Assembly: GCA_022561955.1 (NCBI GenBank)
Contig: JADFQF010000072.1
Location: 1-6,894 of the forward strand
Length of the DNA: 6,894 nucleotides
Reading direction: 5' to 3'
Source of the DNA: Chloroflexota bacterium
GTDB taxonomy: Bacteria; Chloroflexota; Dehalococcoidia; SAR202; UBA11138
Shown: positions 154-6,661 of the stretch, piece after piece
How positions within the stretch are numbered: the first letter of the stretch is position 1
Layout: each line of letters opens with the position of its first letter
The notes under the pieces: model-generated
Seen by the model: the letters and a program-made list of their open reading frames with translations, nothing else
The model's database searches: none
What the model was told of the DNA's origin: nothing
Program-made: the position numbers and the translations under genes

Positions 154-387
154 ATGTCCTCAGAGAACGATTCGCTAGTTGCGATCCTGGCGGATATGCT
201 CCGCTCTGCCTTAACATGGGAAGAGAAGAATGCGCCATCTTCCTCCCAGACCGACCTCTGCGATTCGAATGATGTACTCGATCCCTACACAAGCCCTTCA
301 CAGACGGCCCAAAGGATAATCACGATACCAAAGAAAGAAGGCAAAGAATATGGGAAAGCAGAGGACTCCGCGAAGCCACCCCAATAA
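154..387 (+). CDS. Small hypothetical protein upstream of the recombinase (77 aa)
   Basis: I do not recognise this protein. It starts MSSENDSLVAILADMLRSAL, which would form a short amphipathic helix. A Ser/Thr/Asp-rich middle follows, and then a Lys/Glu-rich hydrophilic tail. It has no membrane segment or signal peptide. The ATG at 154 is preceded only by a weak purine stretch (GAAAG), so the ribosome binding site is poor. The last 38 nt overlap the recombinase start at 350 in another frame, and the recombinase Shine-Dalgarno lies inside this ORF, so translation of the two could be coupled. Small accessory genes directly before an integrase are common in mobile elements, but no function can be given. 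It may also be a chance ORF. Confidence 0.45.
   Translation: MSSENDSLVAILADMLRSALTWEEKNAPSSSQTDLCDSNDVLDPYTSPSQTAQRIITIPKKEGKEYGKAEDSAKPPQ
336..341 (+). promoter_or_regulatory. Ribosome binding site of the recombinase
   Basis: AGAAGG lies 8 nt before the ATG at 350. This is a good Shine-Dalgarno match and fixes the recombinase start at MGKQRTPRSH. The site is inside the coding sequence of the small upstream ORF. Confidence 0.6.
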
Positions 388-2062
388 ACCCCCCGTGACC
401 TTCGAGGAATTAAAAGGTCTCAGGGCAAGAGGATACATCCGAGACTCCACGTTGGATCAGCGTGACGGCTTCGGCCCCGATATTCAGCGCCACAACATCC
501 AGCGCTTCGCTGATTCGTACGTCCTTATCCTTGATGACTTTTTCTACGTCGAGTTCGTCTCGGGCAGAAGCGCATCCAAGAGAAGTGTCTTTGCCCAGCT
601 CATTGAGGACGCACGACTCGACCTCTATGACGTCCTCCTGGTGGACCACACTTCCAGATTCGGCAGAAACCAGGAGGAGTGTATCAAATACAAGACCATA
701 CTCAGGGAGCTGGGCAAGGTAGTCGTGTTCGTCTCCCAAGGCATCATCAGCGGCTCCGATCGAGACTTCCTTAATGAACGCATCAACGAGACCCTGGACG
801 AGGTCTACAGCAGAAATCTTTCCAGGTACATATCCGCGGGACTATTCGAGAAGGCCTCGCAAGGGCTTGCCAATGGCAAACCTCCCCTGGGCTATAAGAG
901 CGAGAAGCTCGACAACGGCAGGAGAGAGAGCAAAGTGCCCGATCCAAAGACCTTGCCGGCTCTATTCGAATTGCTCGAGTGCTATGCGACAGGAACCTAC
1001 TCCTATCCGTCTCTTGCAGACCACCTGAATGTTCAGGGTCTCCGCACAAGGTTAGGGCAACCATTTACGCCAGGCTCTGTCGAGCATATCCTGCAAAACC
1101 GGTTCTACGAAGGCAAGGCCGTCTACCACCCAGGCAGGCCTGATGAGGAGGTAAGGGATGGAGTTCACGAGGTATCCGGTGAGATTAGAAATCTCTGGCT
1201 CATCTGCCAGGATGTGAAGCAGCGGAGGACCAAACCCTGGGGACGTGGAACAAGGACCGCATCCAGGGCCTACGTCTTTTCGGGTGTCCTAATCTGCGAT
1301 GAGTGCGACACCTGCTACAAAGGTCTCGCCAAGTACCGAGATGACGGTAGGGTCATCCAAAAGCTGCTTCACAAGCGGGGATCGTGCAGCGTACGCCCTC
1401 GTACGCAGCGAATGCAAACGCTCAGCAACCAGTTCGCTGATCGTGTTCTACCCTACATGAACTTATCGGTGGACTTCGTTGAAAGCGTAACCCGTGCTCT
1501 CGTACGGCAAGCTGGACAGCCGGAGGATGAGTCGAAGATCCCACGACTTGAACGAGCGCTTGCACAATTAAAGAAGCAGCACGTTTGGGGGGATTTATCA
1601 GACGAGCATTACCTCAAGGAGCGGGACAAACTACGGAAAGAGCTTCAGACGTTAAGATCCGCCTCATCGGTGGTACAGATTCCGAACATCCAAAGGGCTA
1701 AGAAGCTTCTAGATAATCTTCGTTGTCTCTGGAGACACCCTGGTGTTTCGGACGCTCAGAGACAGAGGCTCGTTTTGGAGGTATTCGACCAGGTGAGAAT
1801 CAGAGGAAAGGAGATCGTGGCCATAAGACCTAAGGCCCAATATGAACCCCATTTCGCATATATGGCCCTGGCGAACGGGGGGTGTCCGGTGTCGGGGAGA
1901 CAGGAATTGAACCTGCGACCCCCTGCACCCCATGCAGGTGCGCTACCAAACTGCGCTACTCCCCGACTACAGCTAGAGTATCACAGGGATTTCAGGGGTT
2001 CAAGAACACACGCTGCGTCCGAGGACGCCTCAACTCTGATGAGACTTACTCGCGAAGGCTAG
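350..2062 (+). CDS. Large serine site-specific recombinase (resolvase/invertase family, integrase-like)
   Basis: A 570-residue large serine recombinase, expected to catalyse integration and excision of the element by DNA cleavage through a 5'-phosphoserine link. The N-terminal catalytic domain (about residues 27-165) carries RDST, with S33 the likely nucleophile and R31 beside it, and the DHTSRFGRN motif with R103 and R106 as active-site arginines. A 'recombinase' DNA-binding domain follows (about 175-290, with GKPPLGY at 176-182). Next comes a Cys cluster typical of the zinc-ribbon domain (C316, C319, C322, C346) and a charged coiled-coil-like stretch (about 395-437). Homology-like sequence ends near residue 510 (VRIRGKEIVAIRPKAQYEPH). 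From residue 515 on, the frame is antisense to a tRNA-Pro gene (to about 539) and then flanking chromosome. These last ~56 residues look like host-derived read-through rather than a domain. The TAG stop overlaps the ogg stop by 4 nt. The family call is firm; the role as integrase of this island is inferred from position. Confidence 0.9.
   Translation: MGKQRTPRSHPNKPPVTFEELKGLRARGYIRDSTLDQRDGFGPDIQRHNIQRFADSYVLILDDFFYVEFVSGRSASKRSVFAQLIEDARLDLYDVLLVDHTSRFGRNQEECIKYKTILRELGKVVVFVSQGIISGSDRDFLNERINETLDEVYSRNLSRYISAGLFEKASQGLANGKPPLGYKSEKLDNGRRESKVPDPKTLPALFELLECYATGTYSYPSLADHLNVQGLRTRLGQPFTPGSVEHILQNRFYEGKAVYHPGRPDEEVRDGVHEVSGEIRNLWLICQDVKQRRTKPWGRGTRTASRAYVFSGVLICDECDTCYKGLAKYRDDGRVIQKLLHKRGSCSVRPRTQRMQTLSNQFADRVLPYMNLSVDFVESVTRALVRQAGQPEDESKIPRLERALAQLKKQHVWGDLSDEHYLKERDKLRKELQTLRSASSVVQIPNIQRAKKLLDNLRCLWRHPGVSDAQRQRLVLEVFDQVRIRGKEIVAIRPKAQYEPHFAYMALANGGCPVSGRQELNLRPPAPHAGALPNCATPRLQLEYHRDFRGSRTHAASEDASTLMRLTREG
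1890..1916. other. Putative attachment site at the tRNA-Pro 3' end (element/chromosome junction)
   Basis: This stretch covers the T-arm, the 3' acceptor strand and the first bases past the discriminator of tRNA-Pro. The recombinase gene abuts it and points into it, as integrase genes commonly do beside their att site. The tRNA is intact, so the element appears to have rebuilt or preserved the 3' end. The second copy expected at the far end of the element is not in this window; I saw no match in bases 1-349, so the element would extend left. Just outside is a short direct repeat, GGTGTC at 1881-1886 and again at 1888-1893. The exact crossover cannot be placed. Island insertion by a serine recombinase at a small-RNA gene has precedent in Dehalococcoides (islands at ssrA). 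Confidence 0.4.
1892..1965 (-). tRNA. tRNA-Pro (anticodon GGG)
   Basis: The minus strand folds as a complete 74-nt cloverleaf. The acceptor pairs CGGGGAG (1965-1959) with CTCCCCG (1899-1893). The D-stem is GCGC/GCGC with a 9-nt loop containing GG. The anticodon stem is CCTGC/GCAGG around the loop ATGGGGT, placing GGG at 1931-1929. The variable loop is GGGTC, the T-stem GCAGG/CCTGT (one G-U pair) and the T-loop TTCAATT. The discriminator is A, at 1892. CCA is not encoded; the genome continues CACC, so CCA must be added after transcription. GGG reads CCC (and CCU by wobble). A C at position 1 is typical of bacterial tRNA-Pro. The gene lies entirely inside the recombinase frame on the opposite strand. 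Confidence 0.95.
1975..2003 (-). promoter_or_regulatory. Sigma-70-type promoter of tRNA-Pro
   Basis: On the minus strand, TTGAAC (2003-1998) and TACTCT (1980-1975) are separated by exactly 17 nt. Both boxes match the consensus well. The -10 box ends 9 nt before the mature tRNA 5' end at 1965, so transcription would start only a few bases upstream of the tRNA. It sits in the 93-nt gap between ogg and the tRNA, so the tRNA keeps its own promoter on the chromosomal side, unaffected by an insertion at its 3' end. Confidence 0.6.
2015..2028. other. Hairpin GCGTCC-GA-GGACGC between ogg and tRNA-Pro
   Basis: A perfect 6-bp G+C-rich inverted repeat, or 5 bp with a CGAG tetraloop, about 30 nt past the ogg stop on the minus strand. 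It could be a weak terminator for the repair operon, but the bases after it (AGCGTGTGTTCTTG on the minus strand) are not a proper U-tract. The call is therefore only a stem-loop. Confidence 0.3.
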
Positions 2063-2913
2063 GTCTTCTTTCCCTGCAGGCGACGCCCGTGAAACAGGTA
2101 CTGGTTCGCGTAGCCCGCGTAGCGTCCGAAGTAGTCCTGCGCCCAGGGCCTCATGGCCTTCTTGGTCAGCTTCTTTTCCACGACCGTCGGGTACCACTCT
2201 CGCAGCGCCCGATCGATCCAGACATCCACGGGAAAGGCCTCGAGCTTGTCCAACGAGAAGAGCATTATGCAGTTGGCCACCTTGTCGCCTATTCCGGGCA
2301 GGGCCACCAGCGACTCCAGCGCCTCGTCGTAAGATGCCTCACGCAGCGCATACAGGTCGAGGCCTCCATCCGCGATAATTCTGGCCGTCGCGGCGACGTA
2401 CTTGGCACGGAACCCCAGCCCGAGGTCTCGCAGCGGCTGCTCTCCCGCCTCCGCCAGCACATCCACGGTCGGAAACGTGTGCCTAACGTCGCCGTTGGCC
2501 CTGATTGCACGGCCAAATCTCGTTGAGATGTCTTCGACGTTTGTGCTGATTCGGCCTATGTTGGAGTTGGCGGAGCAGATGAAGGACACGAGGCATTCCC
2601 AGGGCTCCTGCCGCAGGATCCGCATGCCTGGGAACCTCTTGATGGACTCTCCGATATACTCGTCTCTGTTGATGGTCGCGTAGATGGCGTCTATGTCGTC
2701 TTCGAGACGCAGATAGCCGCGCAACAGGGGTTCCAGGGCGAGCTCGTCGTCAGGCGAAGAGCGGAACTCCACGCCCTTCTGGTTCCTCCTGATCTTGACG
2801 TTGTTGTTGAAAATGACGCTGCCGTACCAGTCGCCTTCTCTCCGCCAACGGAAGGCCTGTCCGCACTCCAGCGTGCTTTCAAGATCGTAGGTGCTCTCGA
2901 AATCAATCTGCAC
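2059..2913 (-). CDS. ogg: 8-oxoguanine DNA glycosylase/AP lyase, OGG1 type
   Basis: This bifunctional base-excision repair enzyme removes 8-oxoguanine opposite C and nicks the abasic strand by beta-elimination. The 284-residue protein shows the OGG1 signatures in order: GQAFRW (18-23); CSANSNIGRI (113-122), the counterpart of human CSSNNNIARI, with N116 matching the Asn that fills the gap in DNA; and LGLGFRAKYVAATAR (164-178). The helix-hairpin-helix LPGIGDKVANC (205-215) has catalytic K211 (human K249), and PVDV has catalytic D230 (human D268). F274 in YLFHGRR matches the Phe that stacks on the damaged base. C215 corresponds to human C253. The start is GTG at 2913, only 3 nt after the dinG stop, with a weak Shine-Dalgarno, so it is probably translated by coupling. 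The GTG is in the same frame as dinG, separated by TAG GCG. It is shorter than human OGG1, as expected for a prokaryotic form. Confidence 0.93.
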   Translation of the reverse strand: MQIDFESTYDLESTLECGQAFRWRREGDWYGSVIFNNNVKIRRNQKGVEFRSSPDDELALEPLLRGYLRLEDDIDAIYATINRDEYIGESIKRFPGMRILRQEPWECLVSFICSANSNIGRISTNVEDISTRFGRAIRANGDVRHTFPTVDVLAEAGEQPLRDLGLGFRAKYVAATARIIADGGLDLYALREASYDEALESLVALPGIGDKVANCIMLFSLDKLEAFPVDVWIDRALREWYPTVVEKKLTKKAMRPWAQDYFGRYAGYANQYLFHGRRLQGKKT

Positions 2914-2916
2914 CGC

Positions 2917-5775
2917 CTATCGCACCGTACTGGCGACGGCCAGCCAATCTCCGACAACGTTCTTTAGGTCTTGTAACGCGCAATCCGCGTAGGCCGTCTC
3001 GGGCAACGAAGACAGGAAGGCCTTGCCATAGCCGCGGGACGAGATGCGCTTGTCCAGAATGATCGCGACGCCCCTGTCCGCCTTGGTGCGAATCAGGCGC
3101 CCGAAGCCCTGTCTCAGTCGCAGTATTGCCTGCGGCACCGCGTATTGATTGAATGAGCTCTCGTACAGCTCCGACCGGGCGGCAAAGACCGGGTCCGTCG
3201 GCACGCTGAACGGCAGCCGGCTCACGAGCAACACCTTCAACACGTCTCCGGCCAGGTCAACGCCCTCCCAGAAGCTGGACGTACCCAGCAGAACCGCCTT
3301 GGGATCCTCCAAGAACCTACGCAGAAGCTGTGCCGGCGAGCCGTCGAGTCCCTGGGCCAATACCTTTATGCCGTCGGCCTGAAGCTGTGAGCGAATGGCG
3401 GCCGCGGTGGCCTGCAACGAGGCATGGGACGTGAAGAGGGCCATCGTGCGACCCTCCGCGGCGTTGGCTGCGTCGACGACCGCCTGCTCCAGCGCCCCCT
3501 GGTACGCCCACGAGTTGGGCTCCGGCATGTCTTGCGGCACGCAGACAAGGGCGGCCCTGGGATAGTCGAAGGGTGAGCCCAGCAGGAGCTCCTCGGCGTC
3601 GGAAAAGCCGGTGCGCTCGACCATGTGCGAAAACGAGCCCTTTGCGCTTAGCGTGGCGCTCGTCATGACTACGGACTCTTTTTGAGAAAAGAGCGACTCC
3701 TCCAGGGAGTCCCCGACATGAATGGGCGCCATGTGAAGGGTTATGTCCCCACTTCTCGAAGAGTGGCTGATCCAGTAGATGCCCTCCGGCTCGGGATGCG
3801 GAACGAATTCAGTGAGCCTCTGGCGCAGCTCGGCGTTGGCCTGCTGAGCGTTGGCCAGCTCCATCATGAGGCCGTCGTAGTTGAGCAGATTCGCGTTCGC
3901 CAGGTCCTCCAGCCCACCGTACAGCTTTCGCAGGGAGCCGCCAAGCTCGCCCAAGAGAATATCCGCATTCTGCCAGGAGACCTCAGCCTCCGACCAGGAC
4001 GGCTGCGACCTGACGCCGCTGGTGACGCGCAGCTCCTGGACTTGCCCGCTGCCTCTCTCGGCGGACTCATCGAGCACGACCTTTATGGCGGCAAACATCT
4101 GCGAGAGGCTGTCCCGCAGGCGCGGCATTCGCTCGGCAACATTCGTCGCGATGGCCTGGACCGATTCCTTGCGCTCAGTCATGCCCGAGGCGGTGCGAAA
4201 GGCGGTCACGGCCTCATTCAGGAGGCCACGGTCGCCGCTCAGCGACCCCAGGTACTCGTCGAACCTGCCCTGTGCTAGCTCGAAGCCAAAGTGCCGGGTG
4301 GCCTCGTCTTCCAGATGGTGGGCCTCATCGACGATCAGGATGTCGTAGTCCGGTATCAGCGTCCCGCCCGCGATGACGTCCGACAGCAAGAGAGCGTGGT
4401 TCACCACTACGATATGCGAGGCGGCGGCGCGCTCCCTGGCCGCGCGTAGGAAACACGGCCCGCCCGTGCTAAGGCATTCGACGGCCCCCTGGGCGGACAG
4501 CCTCTCCCACGGCGCCGCGCTGTTGCGGTTGCCCAGGTTTATCTCGCTCCGGTCTCCCGTAGCTGTGTCCTTGAGCCAGACCATGGCCTTCGCCAACAGT
4601 CGGGCCTCGTTGTCGGCCAGCGACTCGCTGGAGCGCATGTGAGTGAATCGACGTAGGCAGAGGTAGTTCGCCCTACCCTTCAGCTGCGTGAACTTCAGCT
4701 CCTCGGCGTCGATGGAATCCATAGCTCGCAGCGTGTTCACGAGGTCCGGCAGGTCCTTGTTCGCGAGCTGCTCCTGCAGGTTGATCGTGTTTGTGGAGAT
4801 GACGACGCGCTTGTCGTTCATCAATGCGTAGAGCGCCGCGGGCAGGAGATATGCCAGCGACTTGCCGACGCCCGTTCCGGCCTCGACGATGAGCCGCTGT
4901 CCCTCGTTGATGGCCTTACCGACGGCGAGGGCCATCTCCACCTGCTCCGTGCGCTCCTCGAATGCTGGAATCGACTGTGAGAAGGGGCCTCCACTTCGCA
5001 ACATCGAGGCGATGACGCCCAGGTCCAGAGTTGCCGGCTCTTTCGTCGCGCGCAAGGACCGACGCTGATGTAGCCGTGCCGAAATCTCCTTCATATCGAC
5101 GCCCGTGGCCCCTGTCCCTAGATCTTGGGCCCCGGTCCTTCCAGGTTGCCACGAGCTTTTCTGGGCCTCCAGCCCCTTGAGGACATAGCCCAGGACCCAC
5201 GAGGAGCGCGCGGCGAGCCTGCTCATCTCGGCAAGGGTGTAAACGTCCAGCTCGGAGGCCTCCTCGACCATCGTGACGAATACCTCCTTTGTCGCCAGGG
5301 CATCGTCCACGGCCCTGTGGGGCCTGTCGTGTTGGAGGTTCATGCGGGCCGCAAGCCGGGAAAGCGAATACTCGGGCAGACCCGGTCGCATGACATAGGC
5401 CAGGTCCCAGGTGTCGCAACGAGGGTTCGACAGCTTCAGGCCCTCCGATTCCAGAAATCCAAGGTCGAACCCGAGGTTGTGGCCCACCACCGGCGAGGAG
5501 CCTACGAATAAGGCGAATTGGCCCACGACGGATGAAAAGGGGGGAGCTTCGTTCACCTGTGCCTGTGTGATGCCGGTGAACTGCCGGATGAAGGGGCTGA
5601 GGCGTCTACCTGGATTCACGAAGCTCTGGAAGGTGTCCAGGACCTCGTGTCCCTGAAACTTCACGGCCCCGATCTCGATTATGCGGTCCTTCTTGGGGGA
5701 CAGGCCCGTGGTCTCCAGGTCCAAAGCTACCCAGACCTCTTCGAAGGGCGGAGAATGCTGCGGGAGGAGGGTCAT
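2917..5775 (-). CDS. dinG: DnaQ-DinG fusion: DEDDh 3'-5' exonuclease plus superfamily 2 helicase
   Basis: A 952-residue two-domain DNA repair protein. The N-terminal domain (about 14-175) is a DnaQ/epsilon-type exonuclease with a complete DEDDh set: D19 and E21 in DLETTG, D104 in HNLGFD, and H153 with D158 in HRAVDDA. The helicase part (about 255-945) belongs to the XPD/DinG group of SF2. It has Walker A AGTGVGKS (299-306), DEAH (483-486), motif III-like TSATLS (705-710), GTSSFWEGVD (831-840) and motif VI QGFGRLIR (889-896). Between Walker A and DEAH only three cysteines occur (C373, C434, C441), against the four that hold the Fe-S cluster in DinG/XPD. The cluster may therefore be absent or altered, as in Gram-positive DinG proteins that act mainly as nucleases. 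The ATG at 5775 has a strong Shine-Dalgarno, AAGGAG, 5 nt upstream (5786-5781). It is followed by ogg in one operon. Confidence 0.93.
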   Translation of the reverse strand: MTLLPQHSPPFEEVWVALDLETTGLSPKKDRIIEIGAVKFQGHEVLDTFQSFVNPGRRLSPFIRQFTGITQAQVNEAPPFSSVVGQFALFVGSSPVVGHNLGFDLGFLESEGLKLSNPRCDTWDLAYVMRPGLPEYSLSRLAARMNLQHDRPHRAVDDALATKEVFVTMVEEASELDVYTLAEMSRLAARSSWVLGYVLKGLEAQKSSWQPGRTGAQDLGTGATGVDMKEISARLHQRRSLRATKEPATLDLGVIASMLRSGGPFSQSIPAFEERTEQVEMALAVGKAINEGQRLIVEAGTGVGKSLAYLLPAALYALMNDKRVVISTNTINLQEQLANKDLPDLVNTLRAMDSIDAEELKFTQLKGRANYLCLRRFTHMRSSESLADNEARLLAKAMVWLKDTATGDRSEINLGNRNSAAPWERLSAQGAVECLSTGGPCFLRAARERAAASHIVVVNHALLLSDVIAGGTLIPDYDILIVDEAHHLEDEATRHFGFELAQGRFDEYLGSLSGDRGLLNEAVTAFRTASGMTERKESVQAIATNVAERMPRLRDSLSQMFAAIKVVLDESAERGSGQVQELRVTSGVRSQPSWSEAEVSWQNADILLGELGGSLRKLYGGLEDLANANLLNYDGLMMELANAQQANAELRQRLTEFVPHPEPEGIYWISHSSRSGDITLHMAPIHVGDSLEESLFSQKESVVMTSATLSAKGSFSHMVERTGFSDAEELLLGSPFDYPRAALVCVPQDMPEPNSWAYQGALEQAVVDAANAAEGRTMALFTSHASLQATAAAIRSQLQADGIKVLAQGLDGSPAQLLRRFLEDPKAVLLGTSSFWEGVDLAGDVLKVLLVSRLPFSVPTDPVFAARSELYESSFNQYAVPQAILRLRQGFGRLIRTKADRGVAIILDKRISSRGYGKAFLSSLPETAYADCALQDLKNVVGDWLAVASTVR

Positions 5776-5907: not shown

Positions 5908-6558
5908 TCATACAGGCAGCCCGAAGACCTCCGAGCAATGCCTCAGAGCTCCTTCGTCCCCCTGATATCGCACGTTTCCCGCGTCTATCGCCTCCATCAG
6001 GGTGACTCGTTGCATGGCGATCGCCGAATAGGTATATGAATCGGCGGTGATTACGAGGTCGGGGCCATCTACCGGACCCTGACCCGTCTTTAGCTCGCCA
6101 CCCTCGACCGACGCGTGGAATATCTCGTCGCCTATTCGGAACTCATACCGTTCGCTGAGGCCTGCGGCGAGGTCGGGCCTGAACGCGAAGTGCATGGCGA
6201 GGACCGACCAGCCCGGTCGAAAGTGGTCCCCTGTATTGGGCAGAGCGTGGCTCAGGCTGCCCCACTTGCCGAGCTCAATGATGACGGATTCGAGCCCTCG
6301 GCCCTTCTCCGTGAGCTCGTAGACGGTGGAGCCTGCGGGAGGCGGAAGCCACCTTCGCCCGATCACGCCTTCACCCTCCAGGTCCTTCAACCGCGACGTA
6401 ATGAGGTTCGTGCCGATCCCGGGAAGGTTGTTGAGGATGTCCGTGAAGCGCTTGGGGCCGATCAGCAGCTCCCGGATAATCAGGAGTGTCCAGCGCTCGC
6501 CGACTATGTCCAGGGCGTGGGCGATGGAGCAGTACTGGTGGTAGCTTCGCTTACTCAA
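5908..6558 (-). CDS. HxlR-family winged-helix regulator with C-terminal SCP2-like domain
   Basis: A DNA-binding transcription factor. Numbered from the TTG at 6558 (216 aa), it begins MSKRSYHQYCSIAHALDIVG, followed by ERWTLLIIRELLIGPKRFTD, the HxlR signature. The HTH and wing span about residues 12-95 (recognition region GIGTNLITSRLKDLE, 47-61). C10 sits where HxlR proteins often carry a conserved N-terminal Cys, which in some relatives (YodB, HypR) senses redox. The C-terminal half (about 110-216; LVITADSYTYSAIAMQRVTL through RYQGDEGALRHCSEVFGLP) resembles the SCP2 sterol-carrier-like domain and may bind a lipid-like ligand. An AAGG 8 nt upstream supports the TTG at 6558. Longer in-frame options are GTG at 6567 and TTG at 6624. 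The target genes are not evident, and its link to dinG is only positional. Confidence 0.85.
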   Translation of the reverse strand: MSKRSYHQYCSIAHALDIVGERWTLLIIRELLIGPKRFTDILNNLPGIGTNLITSRLKDLEGEGVIGRRWLPPPAGSTVYELTEKGRGLESVIIELGKWGSLSHALPNTGDHFRPGWSVLAMHFAFRPDLAAGLSERYEFRIGDEIFHASVEGGELKTGQGPVDGPDLVITADSYTYSAIAMQRVTLMEAIDAGNVRYQGDEGALRHCSEVFGLPV

Positions 6559-6661
6559 TTTCTGCACCTTTTCGTCGCTACTTCGTTCGTAATATTGCTG
6601 GGTCGCTAATCTGTTATTCCGCAAACCGGGTCTCGAAAGGACGGACTTTAAGATTCTGACA

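Follow-up and report, generated by a model that had tools for sequence, protein, structure and literature searches.

A large serine recombinase gene in a Chloroflexota genome that continues, without a stop codon of its own, across an antisense tRNA-Pro gene into host DNA

The window, i.e. the whole stretch of 6,894 nucleotides that was analysed from a Chloroflexota bacterium, carries a large serine recombinase gene that extends over a tRNA-Pro gene of the opposite strand, with further genes of the minus strand on the right. The following features were delimited:

154-387, plus strand: small ORF of 77 aa that overlaps the start of the recombinase gene; its N-terminal motif recurs upstream of the recombinases of relatives
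350-2062, plus strand: large serine recombinase ORF, 570 aa, with TAG 2060-2062 as its first in-frame stop
350-1858, plus strand: conserved part of the recombinase, residues 1-503 (Pfam, PHROG and alignment conservation)
1859-1891, plus strand: unconserved 33-nt spacer, residues 504-514, which differs among relatives
1892-1965, minus strand: intact tRNA-Pro(GGG), the putative target gene, antisense to residues 515-539 (ARAGORN, Rfam and fold)
1892-1957, minus strand: tRNA positions 9-74, residues 515-536, a part possibly carried by the element and common to the ectopic copy L002
1958-2059, plus strand: part of the frame derived from the host, residues 537-570 (tRNA positions 1-8 and the 5' flank)
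1975-2003, minus strand: likely tRNA-Pro promoter, TTGAAC-17-TACTCT, by eye
2060-2062, plus strand: TAG stop, supplied by the host
2059-2913, minus strand: 8-oxoguanine DNA glycosylase-like gene (OGG), used as a host-side marker (PF07934, E 1.1e-19; PF00730, E 2.3e-11)
2917-5775, minus strand: DinG/exonuclease-like gene
5908-6624, minus strand: HxlR-type regulator

The protein encoded at 350-2062 is assigned to the large serine recombinases by its resolvase and Recombinase domains and by its length. In Pfam, the resolvase domain covers residues 28-172 (PF00239, E 3e-17, 63.5 bits against a cut-off of 23.3) and the Recombinase domain residues 203-263 (PF07508, E 1.3e-8, 35.4 bits against a cut-off of 21.1). 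An integrase family, PHROG 95, matched over residues 18-492 (E 1.8e-56), and the SPbeta integrase 9dxh (PDB) was matched by profile over profile positions 168-483 (E 4.5e-10). When 22 sequences were aligned, the stretches YIRDSTLDQ, with a nearly invariant S33, and SRFGR were found to be conserved, as were C316, C319, H341 and C346. We take YIRDSTLDQ with S33 to be the catalytic serine motif of large serine recombinases, and the activity is a predicted one. At E<=0.01 the window protein gave no match to the zinc ribbon PF13408, a domain that is listed for some homologs such as P0006 and P0007. The CcrB equivalog NF047343 (NCBIfam) was aligned over residues 19-273 only, and with 61.2 bits the protein is far below its cut-off of 900, so that an identity with the CcrB of SCCmec was rejected. 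The clade of the window recombinase was not encountered in the named phages and plasmids searched: 191 phage and 120 plasmid records were matched, each with less than 60% identity at its best place. Among viral contigs, a search with the single protein gave no match and a search with the alignment returned one distant relative (L035, 28% identity).

The 77-aa ORF that precedes the recombinase matched no Pfam or PHROG family. Its motif LVxILADMLRSALTWEE was found in small ORFs at 7 of the 11 loci L036-L046 (L036, L037, L038, L039, L041, L042 and L043; tblastn E 1.7e-5 to 4e-3), and L040 has no upstream DNA. The product could be a partner of the recombinase or a directionality factor.

Conservation of the recombinase reaches only to about residue 503-508, with its limit at F502/A503. 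Nearly invariant positions extend as far as A503, whose codon ends at 1858, 33 nt ahead of the tRNA. Among the matches listed, local alignments with the query end at residues 502-512 in 81 of 120 relatives, at 515-519 in 9 and earlier than 502 in 3; those that end at 527-539 (27 of 120) continue into unlike or tRNA-like tails. These results agree with the preliminary description of this DNA, in which the end of homology had been placed near residue 510 and the frame had been seen to run from there without a stop to TAG 2060-2062. The open frame alone was discarded as a signal: in first-order Markov simulations, 66 codons without a stop are within chance, with P = 0.10 for the composition of the region and P = 0.12 for that of the window. 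The juxtaposition of recombinase and tRNA, unlike the open frame alone, exceeds chance. In the AlphaFold2 model (mean pLDDT 81.3, pTM 0.43), mean confidence is 83 at residues 501-510 and 33-49 per ten-residue block across 511-570, i.e. the tail is modelled as disordered, a drop in pLDDT that is partly built in since the aligned tails differ.

ARAGORN places tRNA-Pro(GGG) at 1891-1965 on the minus strand, and Rfam reports a tRNA at 1892-1965 on the same strand (62.2 bits; gathering score 29). It had been proposed that residues 515-539 are the antisense translation of this tRNA and residues 540-570 that of its 5' flank, and both placements uphold this reading. A sequence comparable to the likely tRNA promoter, TTGAAC...TATCCT, is present in L010 and L013; a scan for consensus promoters did not report the candidate at 1975-2003 at its thresholds.

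To the right of the tRNA, the window was compared with genomes of the same order. L001, a contig of the Chloroflexi MAG B47T1B5, is 92% identical to the window over 3.9 kb and shares with it the end of the recombinase, the tRNA and OGG. In the order of B47T1B5, an OGG-like match at E<=0.001 was obtained in 238 of 250 genomes, and tRNA-Pro(GGG) lies beside OGG in 7 of the 30 OGG loci retrieved, namely L005 (B47T1B5 itself), L008, L010, L013, L018, L019 and L020. Beyond the tRNA, the contig stops at L008 and L019 (at or within the tRNA itself), and at L010, L013, L018 and L020 the DNA is not a recombinase, nor is it alike among distant pairs. Recombinase searches at E<=1e-60 matched 5 of 250 genomes of the order, 2 of 393 of the class and 4 of 400 of the phylum, in sets that partly overlap, and gave no match in the genomes of L010, L013, L018 and L020. 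The relatives that have OGG and tRNA-Pro without the recombinase are relatives at the level of the order, with an OGG identity of 57-62%, and not sister strains. Because they keep OGG followed by tRNA-Pro, the right side of the tRNA is attributed to the host, as the preliminary description had assumed. By this comparison of gene order, OGG-tRNA-Pro belongs to the old DNA of the host, and the recombinase is a newcomer. No sister genome was found that is free of the recombinase and carries unchanged DNA left of 1892, and in the four order-level relatives this DNA differs.

It had also been claimed that, with the boundary of the element at the 3' end of the tRNA, the integrated protein has a tail encoded by the host. 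This holds for the distal part. The host encodes residues 537-570 at the least, together with the stop codon: the stretch 1958-2059 is missing from L002, a second copy of the recombinase end in the MAG of L001, and a similar 5' flank lies ahead of the tRNA in relatives free of the recombinase. The proximal part, residues 515-536, may instead ride on the element as a rebuilt 3' part of the tRNA. L002 matches the window over 1680-1957, that is up to and including tRNA positions 74 to 9, and then diverges; its frame stops directly after the shared part of the tRNA, which gives a protein of 536 aa, and there is no intact tRNA at this place. At L041, just 18 nt behind the recombinase match the 3' end of an antisense tRNA-Pro(CGG) and end at the T-loop. 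The two loci conflict as to the position of the crossover, L002 pointing to tRNA position 8/9 and L041 to the T-loop, and we infer a crossover somewhere between about 1906 and 1957. If it occurred in the T-loop, the lower bound of the element-carried part of the tRNA would lie at about 1906-1912. The tRNA of the window differs from the OGG-linked tRNAs at 7-8 places. These letters were rejected as a mark of element origin: the tRNAs of G022 (L067) and G231/G232 (L069, L070), with 4 differences each, share several of the window letters, including some in the T-arm.

L002 was also considered as a circular form of the L001 element, and this was rejected: several letters differ in the shared end of the recombinase, and comM-like and tRNA-like fragments lie behind it. 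The comM-like fragment in L002:279-620, named by eye, is 91% identical to G001:C81 of the same MAG. The tRNA-like fragment, which was also named by eye and was not reported by Rfam, resembles sequences in many genomes. The stretch L002:279-620 as a whole looks like a heap of attachment-site scraps. L001 and L002 share their first base, and about 126 nt (L001:1-126 and L002:1-126) are identical in both before they diverge, as would be expected where an assembly graph branches, perhaps with k = 127. As to the far end of the element, L051, L052, L056 and L057 contain no direct repeat longer than 13 nt that could mark it, besides the tRNA; the longest direct repeat is one of 16 nt at 94% in L048, against 9 nt in the window. 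Terminal overlaps indicative of circularity were absent in 9 of the 9 contig sequences tested. Neither the far end (attL) nor an excised circle was found, and we therefore infer the attachment site.

Other members of the clade also contact tRNA genes. Fourteen recombinase loci were gathered (the window, L001, L002 and L036-L046); two of them, L037 and L038, end before the conserved end of the protein, which leaves 12 to be counted. The frame enters an intact antisense tRNA in half of these (6 of 12: the window, L001, L039, L043, L044 and L046). Further contacts are present at L045, where the tRNA is cut by the end of the contig, at L002 with its 66-nt tRNA fragment and, over 18 nt, at L041; at the remaining 3 of 12 (L036, L040 and L042) there is no tRNA. 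The gene concerned is a tRNA-Pro(CGG) at L039, L043, L044 and L045 and a tRNA-Val(CAC) at L046. The point at which translation would end also varies: the frame of L044 crosses its tRNA from end to end and reaches a stop 33 nt past it, and those of L039, L043 and L046 stop inside the tRNA, at L039 and L043 in the T-loop. The contig at L045 (G615:C4), 1.05 Mb long, begins within the tRNA-Pro that adjoins the recombinase. A Rep-like protein (PF23343) is encoded in this vicinity, and the element there may be an integrated replicon.

At the protein level, tails that look like antisense tRNA, as anticipated for relatives, were found in 19 of 117 untruncated homologs, in all three frames; this count comprises 17 tails called by script, minus P0073 and plus P0008, P0029 and P0075, which were added by hand. 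Three internal motifs matched 10 of the 117 tails (one of them falsely) compared to 4 of 837 control stretches. Eight of the 19 tRNA-like tails end in the T-loop. With 3 of 12 loci and 98 of 117 homologs lacking a tRNA-like tail, the tRNA target seems to be limited to part of the clade. The tails that are not tRNA-like were named by their letters and fall into 53 'SPP', 27 'VGG' and 18 others. On a FastTree tree of 123 rows, the type of tail is strongly clustered, with 20 changes compared to a mean of 63 after shuffling: VGG forms one group, SPP falls mostly into one, and tails of the tRNA type are scattered near the base. The rows of L044-L046 are long, and their placement is unsure. Among the closest relatives of the window protein are P0002, with a tRNA-Pro-like tail in the same frame, and P0001, with no tRNA-like tail. 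On these comparisons the tail seems to report which site is targeted, and its type would track the type of target site on the tree.

The VGG tails (L040 past 1203 and L042 past 2970) end in GTTCATCCTGAGC or GTCATCCTGAGC inside sequence that resembles a repeat, and a dispersed repeat, not a tRNA, may be the target in this subgroup. The SPP class, the largest with about 53 of 117, has a conserved SPPSPP stretch and is variable after it. Searching with the tail of the window protein returned P0121/P0122; their tail GREDLNLRPPEPHSGALPNCATPR, which shares 84-85% identity with that of the window over 25-26 residues, also has the look of antisense tRNA-Pro. These two proteins, known from the protein alone, have a similar tail but belong to another, distant branch of serine recombinases, with the zinc ribbon PF13408. 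A second search with the tail returned the query alone. The reach of such searches is limited, P0002, with 80% identity in the tail over 25 residues, having been missed, and within this reach no relative away from tRNA genes was found to conserve the last 56 residues.

In our judgement the locus most probably represents an integrated element, or a remnant of one, whose large serine recombinase is directed at the 3' part of tRNA-Pro, the tail of the protein being a tolerated by-product. The attachment site, which would contain the 3' part of the tRNA, would lie directly behind the last codon that is needed, and integration would rebuild a working tRNA. With attP at the end of the gene, there would be no room for, nor need of, a stop codon of its own. 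With about 33 nt between the last conserved codon and the start of the attachment site, the gene would take whichever stop comes first, and translation would run to a stop within the tRNA, in the host flank as in the window, or across attP in the circle. The resulting tail would not be under selection, and the recombinase would work with many tails. Over residues 445-504 the window and L001 differ at 7 nt and at 0 aa; their tails are 66 aa and 132 aa long owing to non-triplet indels in the host flank. This frameshift despite an unchanged core favours neutrality of the tail.

The effect of integration might instead be exerted on expression, which we regard as unlikely. The promoter of the tRNA would fire antisense into the integrated recombinase gene, the mRNA would gain a host 3' end and the recombinase would be dampened. 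Consistent with this, the two genes face each other across about 33 nt, and the recombinase took the place of the host DNA behind the tRNA; moreover, no terminator-like site was found on the minus strand between 1500 and 2200, whereas at L018, the one empty locus considered here, a hairpin and T-rich sequence were seen by eye just behind the tRNA. The terminator scan was crude, and 0.8 sites are expected by chance in this interval. More generally, the clade might have retained a fusion between attachment site and gene end in such a way that integration swaps the stop, the 3' end of the mRNA and the antisense traffic at once. The recombinase would then need no dedicated regulator to sense whether it is integrated, the signal acting on expression even if the tail itself has no effect; this we put forward as a distinctly doubtful conjecture. 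A state-dependent effect, if true, would amount to simple integration sensing.

It is also quite unlikely that the recombinase is a decaying remnant in which the read-through reflects the loss of a former stop. No rest of the element is visible in the window, and L002 looks broken and ectopic, with fragments of other genes behind it; however, residues 1-503 retain an intact frame with conserved motifs, none of the nucleotide changes relative to L001 in residues 445-504 alters the protein, and the layout without a stop recurs in relatives.

The preliminary description had raised the possibility that the tail acts as an integration-state switch, a host tail in the integrated form and an element tail in the circle altering the activity or stability of the recombinase. 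Such a tail could, for example, block the integrated enzyme or mark it. The tail must indeed differ between the two states beyond the crossover, L002 has the shorter form with a stop right behind the shared part of the tRNA, and the accessible text on DsiB of Dehalococcoides already suggests that this enzyme is perhaps fully functional only on the circle (McMurdie et al. 2011, PMC3146451), but the idea fares poorly and is very improbable: the tail is frameshifted and unconserved even between the window and L001 at the same site, the tails of relatives are in three frames and of very different lengths, those that stop inside the tRNA, in the T-loop (L039, L043 and 8 of the 19 protein tails), might not change between the states if this stretch is carried by the element, and the tail is predicted to be disordered.

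In practice, the variable end of a recombinase in databases can disclose its target site, and tails past residue about 505 are best omitted from trees, domain models and constructs.

Some lambdoid and staphylococcal phages have an int gene whose end lies within attP or close to it, and mycobacteriophages are known for immunity that depends on integration. The archaeal suicidal tyrosine integrases of the SSV, pTN3 and pT26-2 types have, according to the accessible text of PMC8371274, an attachment site inside the integrase gene that often matches a tRNA, and there as in the window integration changes the integrase gene. In these archaeal systems a tyrosine integrase gene is split and killed, whereas in the window the conserved part of a serine enzyme stays whole and only an unconserved tail changes; the window recombinase, with its serine recombinase domains and intact conserved part, was thus not identified with them. 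In the mycobacteriophages Boilgate and Fionnbharth, attP carries tRNA sequence, by which the tRNA is kept functional once the phage has integrated; their attP precedes int, and the focus of the accessible text is on the phage tRNA, not on the C-terminus of the integrase (PMC10865867).

A survey of mostly open-access literature on attachment sites and integrase C-termini returned one direct precedent, PMC3146451. It concerns DsiB, a serine recombinase of about 540 aa that is related to CcrB and encoded by the ssrA genomic islands of Dehalococcoides (McMurdie et al. 2011, PMC3146451). In the part of that paper available, the 3' end of the DsiB gene always overlaps attL and its stop lies only outside the island, in ssrA or in a neighbouring island; the C-termini diverge in length and sequence, the islands insert in the T-loop of ssrA, and both low-efficiency, variable translation and a function restricted to the circle are discussed (PMC3146451). 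DsiB thus resembles the window protein as a Chloroflexota serine recombinase whose gene lacks its own stop and has its 3' end over the attachment site, a putative one in our case. The targets differ, ssrA (tmRNA) for DsiB and tRNA-Pro for the window, which does not have its insertion at ssrA. The insertion point is in the T-loop for DsiB and anywhere within about 1906-1957 for the window, and the comparison is one of published description. A small serine recombinase of the DsiA type, PinR-like, was looked for in relatives, the window having 349 bp upstream of the recombinase. Small serine resolvases lie upstream of the large recombinase at L048 (L048:1881-2504, 207 aa, PF00239) and at L047 (about 102-761, about 205 aa, translation by eye), an order that resembles DsiA-DsiB of the Dehalococcoides islands as the accessible text presents them. 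The phenomenon, including the idea of a switch, has therefore been described for DsiB in the same phylum (PMC3146451, in the part available). What is added here is a tRNA-Pro target, further tRNA targets in the wider clade, evidence for neutrality from the three frames and the frameshift, and a correspondence of tail class with clade. The fusion of a stop-less integrase gene to its attachment site, a feature that has drawn little attention, would thus extend from one family of ssrA islands in Dehalococcoides to tRNA-targeting recombinases elsewhere in Chloroflexota.
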